A DNA stretch of 37,919 nt from Candidatus Saccharimonadales bacterium (GTDB lineage Bacteria; Patescibacteriota; Saccharimonadia; Saccharimonadales; JANWIN01), in assembly GCA_025449905.1 (NCBI GenBank), contig JANWIN010000004.1, positions 88,656 to 126,574 on the forward strand, written 5' to 3'. Position 1 is the first letter of the stretch, and the number at the start of each line of letters is the position of its first letter. The position numbers and the translations under genes were made by a program. Positions 27,591 to 34,626 of this stretch are shown in pieces. The notes below the pieces were generated by a model. The model made no database searches. It was not told the origin of the DNA and worked only from the letters and a program-made list of their open reading frames with translations.

Positions 27591-27675
27591 GCCGGGATGG
27601 CGAAATTGGTAGACGCACTAGCCTTAGGAGCTAGCGGGGCAACCCATGGAGGTTCGAGTCCTCTTCCCGGCACCA
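27591..27675 (+). tRNA. tRNA-Leu (anticodon UAG), class II, CCA encoded
   Basis: GCCGGGA/TCCCGGC acceptor stem, anticodon stem CTAGC-CTTAGGA-GCTAG, GGTTCGAGTCC T arm, long variable region, terminal ACCA. Confidence 0.95.
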
Positions 27676-27684
27676 ATACAATAA

Positions 27685-27713
27685 TTGACGAACATTGACA
27701 AGTGTGCTATAAT
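27685..27713 (+). promoter_or_regulatory. Sigma70-type promoter of the his leader
   Basis: TTGACG (27685-27690), 17-nt spacer, TATAAT (27708-27713). Confidence 0.88.
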
Positions 27714-27723
27714 ATCTCCCAGT

Positions 27724-27783
27724 ATGAATTATGTTCGGACTAACCAGCATCATCTACATCTATTGCCGGAGCTGATCGGTTAG
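27724..27783 (+). CDS. Putative histidine attenuator leader peptide MNYVRTNQHHLHLLPELIG
   Basis: ATG 10 nt after the -10 box; codons CAG CAT CAT CTA CAT CTA; followed by an intrinsic terminator and his-related genes. Confidence 0.82.
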   Translation: MNYVRTNQHHLHLLPELIG

Positions 27784-27808
27784 TTTCTCTTTGTCTCAAA
27801 ATACATAG

Positions 27809-27835
27809 AACGCCGGGTCGCCTCCGGCGTTTTTT
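27809..27835 (+). terminator. Intrinsic terminator/attenuator upstream of hisG-hisI-hisS
   Basis: AACGCCGG-GTCGCCT-CCGGCGTT stem-loop followed by a T run. Confidence 0.9.
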
Positions 27836-27869
27836 AATTCTGTTTATTTGTAATTTTAAGGAGAAGAAG

Positions 27870-28514
27870 ATGAGTGAATTTAAAAAAGCAGAAAAAGATT
27901 TGGCTAGTGCAGAGCAAATCCTCCTTCCGAACCGATACGAAGATGCTTTCGTTGAAGCTTACCAGGAGTTAACTGGCCTAGAAGTACCAAAAGCCGATGA
28001 AAGGCGCCTCAAGGCGACTTCAAACGGCCTAACTTATCGATGGATAAGGGGTCGTGATATAACGCCAACTATAGTTAAGTTGTCTAGAGAAAAACCAGGT
28101 TTAAGAGTCTCTGGATTGACCGGTTATGAATGGTGGAGGGAATTTGTAGCTGTTGAAAGGAATCGTTGTAAAACCGCCACGAGTGTAGCTAGTAACAAAC
28201 TGATAGGAAGAGTTAGCCTGATTGCCTCTGCAGAAAGTGCAAAGGCTGTAACGCAAAGGCGCTCCAATCAATCACGTATTCAAGTAGTGACAGCATACCC
28301 AAACTTGGCTAGGAAGTTAGGGTTTGGAGTAAAGCAAGCTGTTTCTGGATGCGTGGAGGGTGTTGCTGATAGTTTAGACCTCCCGGCGCTAGATCTCGTA
28401 TGCAGCGGACAAACTATTAAGAAAAACGGCTTCGTAGAAATTGAGCCACTATTAGATAGCTTCCCAGTTGTTGTCAGTACACTAAGTCCTAGTGGTAGAA
28501 TGGAGGAAAGATGA
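27870..28514 (+). CDS. hisG: Short-form HisG-like ATP phosphoribosyltransferase
   Basis: RIQVVTAYPNLARKLGF...SGCVEGVADSLDLPALDLVCSGQTIKKNGFVEIEPLL matches the HisG pattern (EYPNL...SGSVE.AP..GLAD.IVD.V.TG.TL..NGL); RGRDITPTIVKLSR..PGLRVSGLTG matches the N-lobe; 214 aa; SD AAGGAG at 27858. Confidence 0.85.
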   Translation: MSEFKKAEKDLASAEQILLPNRYEDAFVEAYQELTGLEVPKADERRLKATSNGLTYRWIRGRDITPTIVKLSREKPGLRVSGLTGYEWWREFVAVERNRCKTATSVASNKLIGRVSLIASAESAKAVTQRRSNQSRIQVVTAYPNLARKLGFGVKQAVSGCVEGVADSLDLPALDLVCSGQTIKKNGFVEIEPLLDSFPVVVSTLSPSGRMEER

Positions 28515-28894
28515 GTGAGCTTCGACTGTTAACTGATGCAAGTCAATTAGATTATTCTAAGTTGATTGAGCCACAATCAGGCGAGTTAATAGTCCCAGTA
28601 GTCTGTATTGATAGCTTTAAAATGGTAAGCGAAGGATTAGGTGCTTACCGCATGCAGGGATTCGCAAATCAAGCAGCTGTAGAAACTACTCTAAAAACTG
28701 GTAGAGCTACCTTTTTTTCAAGGAAAAGAAGCGGCCTTTGGGTGAAGGGTGAGGAAAGTGGTAACTTCTTAATTGTTAGAGCGTCATATACAGACTGCGA
28801 CTTCGACAGTATATTGTATGACGTAGATGCTCAAGGTCCGACATGTCACAAGGGACCGAATTCTTGCTTTGAGATAAACGATGAAGGAGAATAA
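28511..28894 (+). CDS. hisI: HisI-like phosphoribosyl-AMP cyclohydrolase
   Basis: TLKTGRATFFSRKRSGLWVKGEESGNFLIV...DCDFDSILYDVDAQGPTCHKGPNSCFE keeps the HisI signature (SR.R..LW.KGE.SG...DCD.D...GP.CH.G..SCF). Confidence 0.93.
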   Translation: MSELRLLTDASQLDYSKLIEPQSGELIVPVVCIDSFKMVSEGLGAYRMQGFANQAAVETTLKTGRATFFSRKRSGLWVKGEESGNFLIVRASYTDCDFDSILYDVDAQGPTCHKGPNSCFEINDEGE

Positions 28895-30153
28895 TGCTAA
28901 TGGCACTATCGATACGACCCTATAAAGGCGCGCGGGATTTCTACCCCGAGGATATGTATTTGCGCAATTATATCTTCGGCAAATGGCGGGAAGTCTGCGA
29001 GCGCTTTGGCTACGAGCCGTACGACGGCCCAATTTTGGAGCCGATTGAGTTATTTGCGTCCAAAACCAGCGATGAAATAGTTAACGAGCAGACCTACAAC
29101 TTTACTGACCGCGGCGGCCGAGAAGTAGTTATGCGGCCGGAAATGACTCCTACAGTTAGCCGAATGGTAGCGGCCAGGCGCCAGGAACTAGCTTATCCGC
29201 TGCGCTTATATAGCATAGTTAACTGCTTTCGCTATGAACGGCCGCAAAAAGGCCGTCTGCGCGAGTTCTGGCAGCTAAATGTCGACTTATTTGGTGTTGA
29301 GGGGGCAGAAGCTGATGTTGAGGTAATTCAACTAGCCGATACTATCATGAAAGCCTTTGGCGCACAGAGGAGCACGTATGAGATAAGAATAAGCAGTAAA
29401 AAATTAATAAATGCAATCTTTGACGAATTGAGTCTAAGTGAAGACGAAAGAAAAGTCCTTCTTTTGCTCATCGATAAGAAAGAGAAAATCGAGTTGATAG
29501 AGTGGGAGCAGCTATTTTACGAAGCAATAGACAAGGAAAAAGCAGAGCGGTTAATAGCCTACCTTAAGGAAGAAAAAGCTCCGGAAGAGGTTCAAAAAGT
29601 ACTCGACAAACTAAGTGACAGCGGCATTAGCAATGTTAGCTTCAGTCGTTACTTGAGCCGCGGTTTTCAGTACTACACCGACATTGTATTCGAGGTGTTT
29701 GATAAAAACCCGGAAAATAATCGTTCTTTGTTTGGTGGTGGACGCTACGACGGCTTAATCGGCCAAATGGGCGTTGAGCCACTGCCGACCGTCGGTTTTG
29801 GTATGGGTGACGTTACTCTAATTGAATATTTAAAATCTAATAATTTAGTTCCAAATCTCAAAACTAAAACCGATATAATATTAGTCCCAGTGGGCGATGT
29901 CTATGAAAAAATCCAGAAACTGGCAAGTGACTTAAGGCAAATGGGTGTTAATGTAGCTGCTGACTTTAGTAATCGCAAAATAGACAAACAGATTAAGGCT
30001 GCGGCTAAGCAGGGAGTGGTATATACTTTATTTGTGGGCAAAAACGAACTAGCTGATGAACAATATACACTTAAAAACTTACTGACCGGCCATGAAGAAA
30101 AACACAGCTTACAACGCATTGTCAGCATCATAAAAGACTATCGAAAAAAATGA
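28894..30153 (+). CDS. hisS: Histidyl-tRNA synthetase
   Basis: NCFRYERPQKGRLREFWQLNVDLFG (motif 2), RGFQYYTDIVFEVFD, LFGGGRYDGL, GFGMGDVTL, C-terminal anticodon-binding domain. Confidence 0.96.
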   Translation: MLMALSIRPYKGARDFYPEDMYLRNYIFGKWREVCERFGYEPYDGPILEPIELFASKTSDEIVNEQTYNFTDRGGREVVMRPEMTPTVSRMVAARRQELAYPLRLYSIVNCFRYERPQKGRLREFWQLNVDLFGVEGAEADVEVIQLADTIMKAFGAQRSTYEIRISSKKLINAIFDELSLSEDERKVLLLLIDKKEKIELIEWEQLFYEAIDKEKAERLIAYLKEEKAPEEVQKVLDKLSDSGISNVSFSRYLSRGFQYYTDIVFEVFDKNPENNRSLFGGGRYDGLIGQMGVEPLPTVGFGMGDVTLIEYLKSNNLVPNLKTKTDIILVPVGDVYEKIQKLASDLRQMGVNVAADFSNRKIDKQIKAAAKQGVVYTLFVGKNELADEQYTLKNLLTGHEEKHSLQRIVSIIKDYRKK

Positions 30154-33110: not shown

Positions 33111-33851
33111 ATGGCGAATTTTGAGGTAGATGGGCTTAGATTTATTAACGTACCACCGGCAGATCTGGCCGAAAGATTTCCCGAAATTCAAGATTTTCGC
33201 CTGTCTAATTATTCAAGGCTTATTGACCGGCCTCCGGAGCAAATTGAACATTTTGTCGGACGTTTAACTGTTGAGTTTTGGTCAGACCCAAACTTGGCGG
33301 TTGGCAAAGTTGCCCGGTCAGCCCAAAGACGCTTTAATCCCAGAGTAGTAATGGCCCTTGATGACCAAACTGACGAGATAGCTGGCTACACTTATATGGC
33401 CGGAAATGTGTCAAGTAAAATTGAAAAGCTGCTGAGAAAGTTGCATACGCCAGATAAAATCGCTACTTATTCTGGCAATCGCGAACGAAAATTTAAAATG
33501 GAGCGCAGCATGTTTTATGCCTGGGGCAATGAATATGTCACAGATGGGCGCGCTGGGCTGCCAACGGTGCTTGCAGCCATTAACATCGGTAACTACCCTG
33601 AGTTTATACGCGGAACCTGGTTCCCTTGGGATGAAGAAGAAGAGCTAAAAGGAAACTTAAATGTCTGGGGCTATCGGCGCGAAGGTGAACCTGAAGATTT
33701 GGAAGGCGACAAGGGTTTTGGCGAGGGTAGTGACCCAACTCATCAAGAGATATGGAAGTCTAGAACTTTAGCTACTGTGCGCGAGAATATCTTAGCTATT
33801 GCCGGGGCGCGTACCGCCATCGATCAAGCCAAAAGATCATTAGGGCATTGA
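33111..33851 (+). CDS. Hypothetical protein, probable GNAT-like paralog of the next gene
   Basis: Same length and similar layout as the following ORF (MANFEVDG vs MTNFDAEN; DEIAGYTYMAGNVS vs GRLVGYSRSANRVF). Confidence 0.6.
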   Translation: MANFEVDGLRFINVPPADLAERFPEIQDFRLSNYSRLIDRPPEQIEHFVGRLTVEFWSDPNLAVGKVARSAQRRFNPRVVMALDDQTDEIAGYTYMAGNVSSKIEKLLRKLHTPDKIATYSGNRERKFKMERSMFYAWGNEYVTDGRAGLPTVLAAINIGNYPEFIRGTWFPWDEEEELKGNLNVWGYRREGEPEDLEGDKGFGEGSDPTHQEIWKSRTLATVRENILAIAGARTAIDQAKRSLGH

Positions 33852-33885: not shown

Positions 33886-34626
33886 ATGACTAATTTTGAT
33901 GCAGAAAATATAATGCTAACTGTTCTACCGGCTGACAAGGTTGGTTTACTATCTGATGGCGAGGTAGATTATAAGCATTGGCAGGAAATTCAAGATCTTG
34001 TAAGGGAGGGATATACATCGAGCTTACCAGAGCGCTCACCGAAAGAGGTAGACTTATTGGTTGATTCGAGTAATTTAAACACATTTCGTGATGCCCAAGT
34101 TGATCCCAATTTTGATGTTCGCAGAGGCAGACTGCCGCGGAATCAAAAATTAGCACAACCAATTGTGATTTTAGCGACTGAAGGTTCATATGAAGGACGG
34201 CTTGTCGGTTATAGCCGCAGTGCCAATAGAGTTTTTGGAAGATCTGATAAATCAAGGGATCGTAAAATGTCTAGACCAGCTTCACGAGAAGTATTAATAA
34301 GTGAAGTGGTAGTCGCCAAGGATTACCGCCTGCGTGGACTAGCCCATATTCTAGCTTCGGCACACTTAGATGAAAGGCATCCTAAGCAACCCGTAGCGGT
34401 TGATGTCTGGGAGGAAATGAGAGATTTTGGTTCAACCATGCAAACCCTTGGCCGCCTCGGCTTTGTTGGTCGGCCCGCTGAACCACGCAACCCATTTCCT
34501 TACGGAATCCCTGGACCCGTAAAAGAGGTTCATCTTAAAGCTCCAAGTGTCAATTTTTTAAGAAAAAAGCTTCATCGCATACCGGGTTTTACTGACATAG
34601 CAGAGAATATAAACATTTATAGTTAA
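33886..34626 (+). CDS. GNAT-like N-acetyltransferase family protein
   Basis: SEVVVAKDYRLRGLAHILASAHLDE resembles GNAT motif A (R/Q-x-x-G-x-A). Confidence 0.6.
   Translation: MTNFDAENIMLTVLPADKVGLLSDGEVDYKHWQEIQDLVREGYTSSLPERSPKEVDLLVDSSNLNTFRDAQVDPNFDVRRGRLPRNQKLAQPIVILATEGSYEGRLVGYSRSANRVFGRSDKSRDRKMSRPASREVLISEVVVAKDYRLRGLAHILASAHLDERHPKQPVAVDVWEEMRDFGSTMQTLGRLGFVGRPAEPRNPFPYGIPGPVKEVHLKAPSVNFLRKKLHRIPGFTDIAENINIYS

Follow-up and report, generated by a model that had tools for sequence, protein, structure and literature searches.

Control by a histidine-rich leader peptide is the textbook example of attenuation in the enterobacterial his operon. The enterobacterial his attenuator (Rfam His_leader) and the trp attenuator share a short open reading frame (ORF), clustered control codons and a terminator and an antiterminator that exclude each other, and both are coupled to ribosome stalling. 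In bacilli, Naville and Gautheret (2010, PMC2965389) described a His leader peptide upstream of a hisS paralogue and of hisZ; his attenuators of Firmicutes were found in groups lacking HisR, and the histidine repressor HisR of Firmicutes belongs to the TrpR/YerC family (Ashniev 2022, PMC9413887).

Here we analysed a window of 37,919 nucleotides from a Candidatus Saccharimonadales bacterium (contig JANWIN010000004.1), in which a short leader precedes a hisG-like gene, hisI and hisS. This leader is very likely a transcription attenuator of the trp/his type, operated by a translating ribosome, that senses shortage of His-tRNA. It has the short ORF, the clustered control codons and the exclusive terminator/antiterminator pair of the enterobacterial systems, while coupling to ribosome stalling is inferred for it. 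However, it carries three His codons, as HHxH, where the enterobacterial his leader has a run of seven, is only ~115 nt long and probably leaderless, has no Rfam match and ends up controlling hisS. With the Firmicutes leaders it shares a His-codon leader placed before a hisS-family gene or a his operon, although it belongs to another phylum and the parts of those reports at hand mention no fusion to HisR (PMC2965389, PMC9413887). The regulated gene and the signal (charging of tRNA-His) are also those of the hisS T-box of Firmicutes, but sensing would be done by the translating ribosome and not by direct tRNA binding, and no T-box match was obtained. The earlier note on this DNA knew of no His leader governing hisS together with two his genes; this novelty is partly anticipated by the hisS-paralogue and hisZ leader reported for bacilli in 2010 (PMC2965389), so that the statement has to be softened. 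A search of the literature on attenuation and leader peptides in Patescibacteria and Saccharibacteria, which left most subscription papers outside, found nothing relevant, and within that limit a ribosome-mediated attenuator has apparently not yet been described in Patescibacteria.

The order read from the sequence is promoter, leader ORF, terminator and then the three structural genes, with the following features:

27591..27675, + strand, tRNA-Leu(TAG), a conserved upstream neighbour found also in L005/L017, L008, L009 and L012
27685..27713, + strand, sigma-70-type promoter TTGACG-17-TATAAT (-35 TTGACG at 27685-27690, -10 TATAAT at 27708-27713), from the sequence
27724..27783, + strand, leader ORF MNYVRTNQHHLHLLPELIG followed by a stop, 19 codons, probably (nearly) leaderless
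27738..27745, + strand, 5' arm of helix P1, GACUAACC, pairing with 27778-27785 (GGUUAGUU)
27748..27759, + strand, control codons CAU-CAU-CUA-CAU (HHLH), with His codons at 27748, 27751 and 27757
27765..27771, + strand, segment A, GCCGGAG, the codons around Pro-Glu, predicted to pair with D in the antiterminator state
27772..27780, + strand, segment B, CUGAUCGGU, the end of the ORF up to the stop codon, 5' strand of the antiterminator, predicted to pair with C
27808..27822, + strand, segment C, terminator 5' arm and loop
27822..27828, + strand, segment D, CUCCGGC, terminator 3' arm, complementary to A
27808..27836, + strand, strong intrinsic terminator GAACGCCGGG-TCGCC-TCCGGCGTTTTTTA, the C:D hairpin and its T's
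27858..27863, + strand, Shine-Dalgarno AAGGAG of hisG, the first structural gene, from the sequence
27870..28514, + strand, hisG-like gene, divergent ATP phosphoribosyltransferase (PF01634 29.2 bits, cut-off 25.5; TIGR00070 29.3 bits)
28511..28894, + strand, hisI-like gene, phosphoribosyl-AMP cyclohydrolase (PRA-CH, PF01502, 97 bits, E 5.7e-28)
28894..30153, + strand, hisS, histidyl-tRNA synthetase (TIGR00442 350.5 bits, over the cut-off of 286.75)

The consensus promoter, the 19-codon ORF with three clustered His codons and the intrinsic terminator, all claimed in the earlier note, were found again, the hairpin now at 27808-27832 and followed by T's (27809-27835 in that note); its tightly packed HisG-like, HisI-like and HisRS genes agree with the Pfam and NCBIfam profiles, neighbouring genes overlapping by 1-4 nt.

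Transcription usually starts ~7 nt 3' of the -10 box. In the window that box is extended (TGTGC 5' of TATAAT) and the leader ATG lies only ~10 nt 3' of it, which leaves no space for a Shine-Dalgarno sequence, a detail absent from the earlier note; in the ten best loci a TATAAT-like box stands 6-10 nt 5' of the leader start codon, placing the beginning of the ORF at the RNA 5' end or within a few bases of it. The leader ORF is thus probably translated from an mRNA that is leaderless or nearly so, its transcription start being inferred. Positions 27694-27715 (ATTGACAAGTGTGCTATAATA) have 95% matches over ~21 nt elsewhere in genomes G010, G029 and G031; possibly this is a general promoter motif of the order, with TTGACA only 7 nt 5' of TATAAT. 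A TATAAT-like box was also seen a few bases 5' of the start codon in many hisS genes of relatives without the element (L159-L178), which suggests that the hisS mRNA may be leaderless there. No His leader with a terminator was found at the hisS genes of 20 genomes of the order chosen for having no match to the covariance model described below.

When the 194-nt intergenic stretch of the window was compared by BLAST with 60 related genomes, eight further families within the order gave matches, 70-81% identical over ~100 nt with E values down to 7e-22. The HisI proteins of the same relatives are only 41-51% identical; leader identity above that of the HisI proteins indicates that the leader is conserved beyond chance. 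Translation of the relatives' leaders gave similar peptides (NQHHIHILPELIG, NQHHIHLSPELSVS, VHIHISPERLG, NQNHLHISPELVG, NQHHLHILPESLR, NQHHLHMQPERRG, HHLHILPERIR and QHLHMSPERVG; that of the window ends in NQHHLHLLPELIG and a UAG stop codon), with conservation of the peptide core, HHxH..PE, and of its distance to the stop. Among 52 loci of this His type the last His stands 8 codons 5' of the stop in 43 and is followed by Pro at +3 in 48, and the His codons comprise 114 CAT and 13 CAC; in the peptide of L017, THMQPEPVLR, the sole surviving His is the last one.

A covariance model was then built from ten loci aligned by MAFFT. At E<=0.01 it gave matches in 72 of 295 genomes from the order, in a patchy distribution that includes weak false matches; the stronger of these are convincing, and plain terminators occur among the weak ones. 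The weak matches L071, L081, L087, L090 and L094 were dropped because they resemble plain terminators and lack a His ORF; those outside the order (L123-L127) also look like plain terminators. The check proposed in the earlier note, that the HHxH run and the terminator be kept in relatives, was passed in 15 families, and covariation of the antiterminator can be added to it. The histidine-codon attenuator reading of that note is therefore supported by the conserved ORF, His codons, spacing and terminator and by the covarying antiterminator.

A hairpin and T-run lie between the leader ORF and the first gene in nearly all loci, and the P1 pairing is present in seven of ten and mostly lost in the other three. 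The antiterminator strands were compared among 54 loci: the cognate B:C duplex has a mean energy of -11.4 kcal/mol vs -7.7 kcal/mol when B and C are taken from different loci, and none of 20,000 permutations reached the cognate sum. With one locus per family (15 loci) it was reached by 0-12 of 20,000 permutations in 11 draws. Changing partners that still pair include GUUCUUCGG with CCGGAGAAC in L044, GUCUCGG with CCGGGAC in L030, and CGUGCUG with CAGCACG in loci of the HisR type (see below). Taken alone, these last showed weaker B:C covariation (604 of 20,000 permutations) because they are closely alike. In the window itself the advantage of B:C over swapped partners is slight (-8.7 vs -8.1), but the whole leader has the alternative hairpin of B:C plus A:D as its minimum-energy fold. 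Pairing of A with D alone (GCCGGAG:CUCCGGC) had been considered as the antiterminator, and the covariation analysis led to B:C plus A:D instead; the A:D pairing by itself is a consequence of the resemblance of A to C. Since A:D lies just 5' of G-U6, the antiterminator might itself terminate weakly. By these comparisons the predicted mutually exclusive terminator/antiterminator pair is conserved by covariation.

Moreover, we positioned a ribosome at every codon in turn and folded the RNA 3' of it, using the partition function and assuming that the ribosome covers 13 nt counted from the A-site. When it stood at the first or the second His codon, the probability of the terminator fell below 0.5 in 49 of the 52 His-type loci; it was back in 48 with the ribosome at the last His codon and formed in all 52 at the stop codon. 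In the controls the terminator was lost in 2.4% of 2,080 cases when the upstream segment was dinucleotide-shuffled and in 35% when that segment was taken from another, non-cognate locus. For the window, terminator probability was 0.01 with the leading edge 8 nt past the start of the last His codon and 0.93 at 9 nt, the switch point being the first base of segment A covered by the ribosome. These folds are at equilibrium, and cotranscriptional folding may differ. The calculation shows that the leader sequence is laid out to switch where it should; switching in the cell has not been shown. That a stall at the last His would already favour the terminator is puzzling, as this is the most conserved control codon, unless the footprint is a few bases shorter than assumed.

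Regarding the structural genes, the earlier note had called hisG and hisI "his biosynthesis genes", which proved too strong: a hisG-like gene and hisI are present, yet the window HisG is divergent, its 29.3 bits lying below the TIGR00070 equivalog cut-off of 75.75, and neither HisA/HisF (PF00977) nor HisD (PF00815) gave a match in the 93%-complete window genome, in which control profiles did match. Without these enzymes histidine could not be made there by the known route, nor could hisG-hisI serve the known pathway. The hisG-like gene and hisI (27870-28894) remain intact despite the absent HisA/HisF and HisD. Further along the window, two adjoining ORFs of 246 aa were noted (33111-33851 and 33886-34626), the first without a Pfam match and the second weakly resembling an acetyltransferase (GNAT).

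We propose that RNA polymerase would start a few bases 5' of the leader ATG and that a ribosome would follow it, translating the leader. With ample His-tRNA this ribosome would reach the UAG and cover A and B, so that the C:D terminator forms and transcription stops after ~115 nt. With His-tRNA scarce it would stall at the first His codons and leave A and B free; B would then pair with C and A with D, no terminator would form, and hisG-hisI-hisS would be transcribed. The useful output in the window genome would be hisS: a cell without the known histidine route would answer a shortage of charged tRNA-His with more synthetase. Support for the attenuator is comparative and comes from conservation, spacing, covariation and association with his genes; in the absence of expression data, the transcription start, leaderless translation, stalling, premature termination and the direction of the response are inferred. 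If true, very small cells that depend on a host, and of whose regulation hardly anything is known, would have transcription-translation coupling and amino-acid-specific starvation sensing, and the locus would be a record of reductive evolution in which a switch outlived its pathway and now runs a tRNA synthetase. This could be tested in cultivated Saccharibacteria with genetic tools.

It may be asked whether the attenuation is an ordinary one that serves hisG-hisI as a live metabolic pair (making, for example, a phosphoribosyl-ATP-derived compound), with hisS as a passenger. Both genes are intact and tightly packed, and HisI has a good Pfam match; nevertheless, key pathway enzymes are absent from the window genome and the element lies 5' of hisS alone in many relatives (L029, L035, L038, L042, L048), which makes this explanation unlikely. 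Arranged by gene content, the loci of the order run from repressor-attenuator-hisIE-hisG-hisD-hisS (G225) and repressor-attenuator-hisGE-hisD-next gene (G139), through attenuator-hisG-hisD-hisI-hisS (G046), attenuator-hisGE-hisD-hisS (G029), attenuator-hisGE-hisS (G043, G013), attenuator-hisG-hisI-hisS (the window) and attenuator-hisI-hisS (G040), to attenuator-hisS (G031, G025, G035). This series, which is read from gene content and not from a tree, is interpreted as stepwise loss of the his operon down to attenuator-hisS, and hisG-hisI of the window is, on this reading, a relic of a his operon still longer in relatives.

Some relatives carry the HHxH run not in a short peptide but at the C-terminal end of a protein of 105-115 aa of the TrpR/YerC family. 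The long leader ORF of L074 scored 52 bits with PF01371 and 58.5 bits with TIGR02531 (HisR/YerC; cut-off 42.2), and the HisR-like protein of G030 is also above the TIGR02531 cut-off; further loci of this form are L061, L065, L072, L080 and L085. As in the HisR/YerC family, repressor ORFs of the L074 type head his operons, but unlike the Firmicutes protein these carry a C-terminal HHxH tail with the attenuator right after the stop. A search of 247 genomes with the L074 protein gave 20 strong homologues in the order (L097-L116), all 20 with a His-containing tail (for example HHSHLSPARAE, HHEHLSPARAD and HHIHIQPDSAD) and 19 with a hairpin directly 3' of the stop. The tails of the HisR form and of the short leader are alike (NQHHSHILPARAD vs NQHHLHLLPELIG). 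HH-tailed HisR-like proteins with a terminator after the stop occur in other classes of Patescibacteria too, such as NHHHNLSPYGKRLG and LHHSHTNPSLEDS. Among the HH-tailed loci outside the order a folding switch was found in five, was partial in one and absent in one; L138, L140, L145, L148, L149 and L155 have the tail and a terminator after the stop, the switch being predicted in five of these six, and their downstream genes include SLOG-fold-like and epimerase-like proteins. HisR without the HH tail, outside the order, had a terminator after the stop in one of ~20 cases. No HisR was found in the window genome. We lean towards the view that HisR of Patescibacteria doubles as its own leader peptide, combining repression at the DNA with ribosome-sensed attenuation of the his operon, and that the window leader is a remnant or sibling of such a tail that stayed behind when the operon was reduced to hisS, although neither the direction of evolution nor the function of HisR has been shown. 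For a repressor-fused attenuator in the relatives, and not in the window, our confidence is moderate, since the function of HisR is assumed here from homology. Such a form would be an economical two-level regulator within one gene.

The conserved frame bears on whether the leader RNA senses histidine or tRNA-His directly, as a T-box or riboswitch with an incidental ORF. In its favour, primary-sequence conservation over ~100 nt is strong, and hisS is under T-boxes in Firmicutes (PMC2965389). Against this, the frame with its His codons is kept also where it forms part of a 105-aa protein, and a permissive Rfam scan of 27676-27880, up to E 10, gave neither a T-box nor His_leader nor any other leader match, only low scores far below gathering; at the gathering threshold the scan of the window reported only tRNA. 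Direct sensing is highly improbable on these grounds. A chance origin of the His-rich ORF, next to a hairpin that merely terminates transcription of tRNA-Leu, is scarcely credible, for although tRNA-Leu lies 48 nt 5' of the ORF and near the leader in several relatives, a promoter stands between the two, the element is kept without an upstream tRNA in L010, L011, L013 and L015, and conservation extends to the His codons, their frame and spacing and the antiterminator.

Returning to the ribosome-mediated attenuator, hisS, hisG, hisI or hisD were found downstream in 40 of 65 loci (within the fetched stretch and with the weak tail included), and other downstream genes encode an M20 ArgE/DapE-type deacylase, an M15 dipeptidase and a SLOG-fold protein. 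At L041, L049, L052, L054, L055, L065 and L080 the element lies 5' of a gene pair for an unidentified Cys-containing protein of ~220 aa, which in L041 has no Pfam match, and for an AstE/AspA-type deacylase. That the non-his genes, including this pair, act in histidine scavenging is plausible, but a guess.

Two weak model matches, L088 and L086 (minus strand, 5' of the first ORF), have isoleucine-codon leaders in the same four-segment layout and good cognate B:C pairing. The leader of L088, MSKQIIDTIIIIPEARG, lies 5' of a LeuA-family gene; that of L086, MSKQMIIISIIISPTSG, is followed by an unidentified gene and then by M20 peptidase-like and DAHP-synthase-like genes. With only two loci, use of the same layout for isoleucine is a lead. 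Finally, a scan with the DNA pattern of the leader core returned several Saccharibacteria records and ~20 others, the latter probably by chance; one exact match to the pattern lies on the viral contig IMGVR_UViG_3300035190_000793 (L215:1788-1810).
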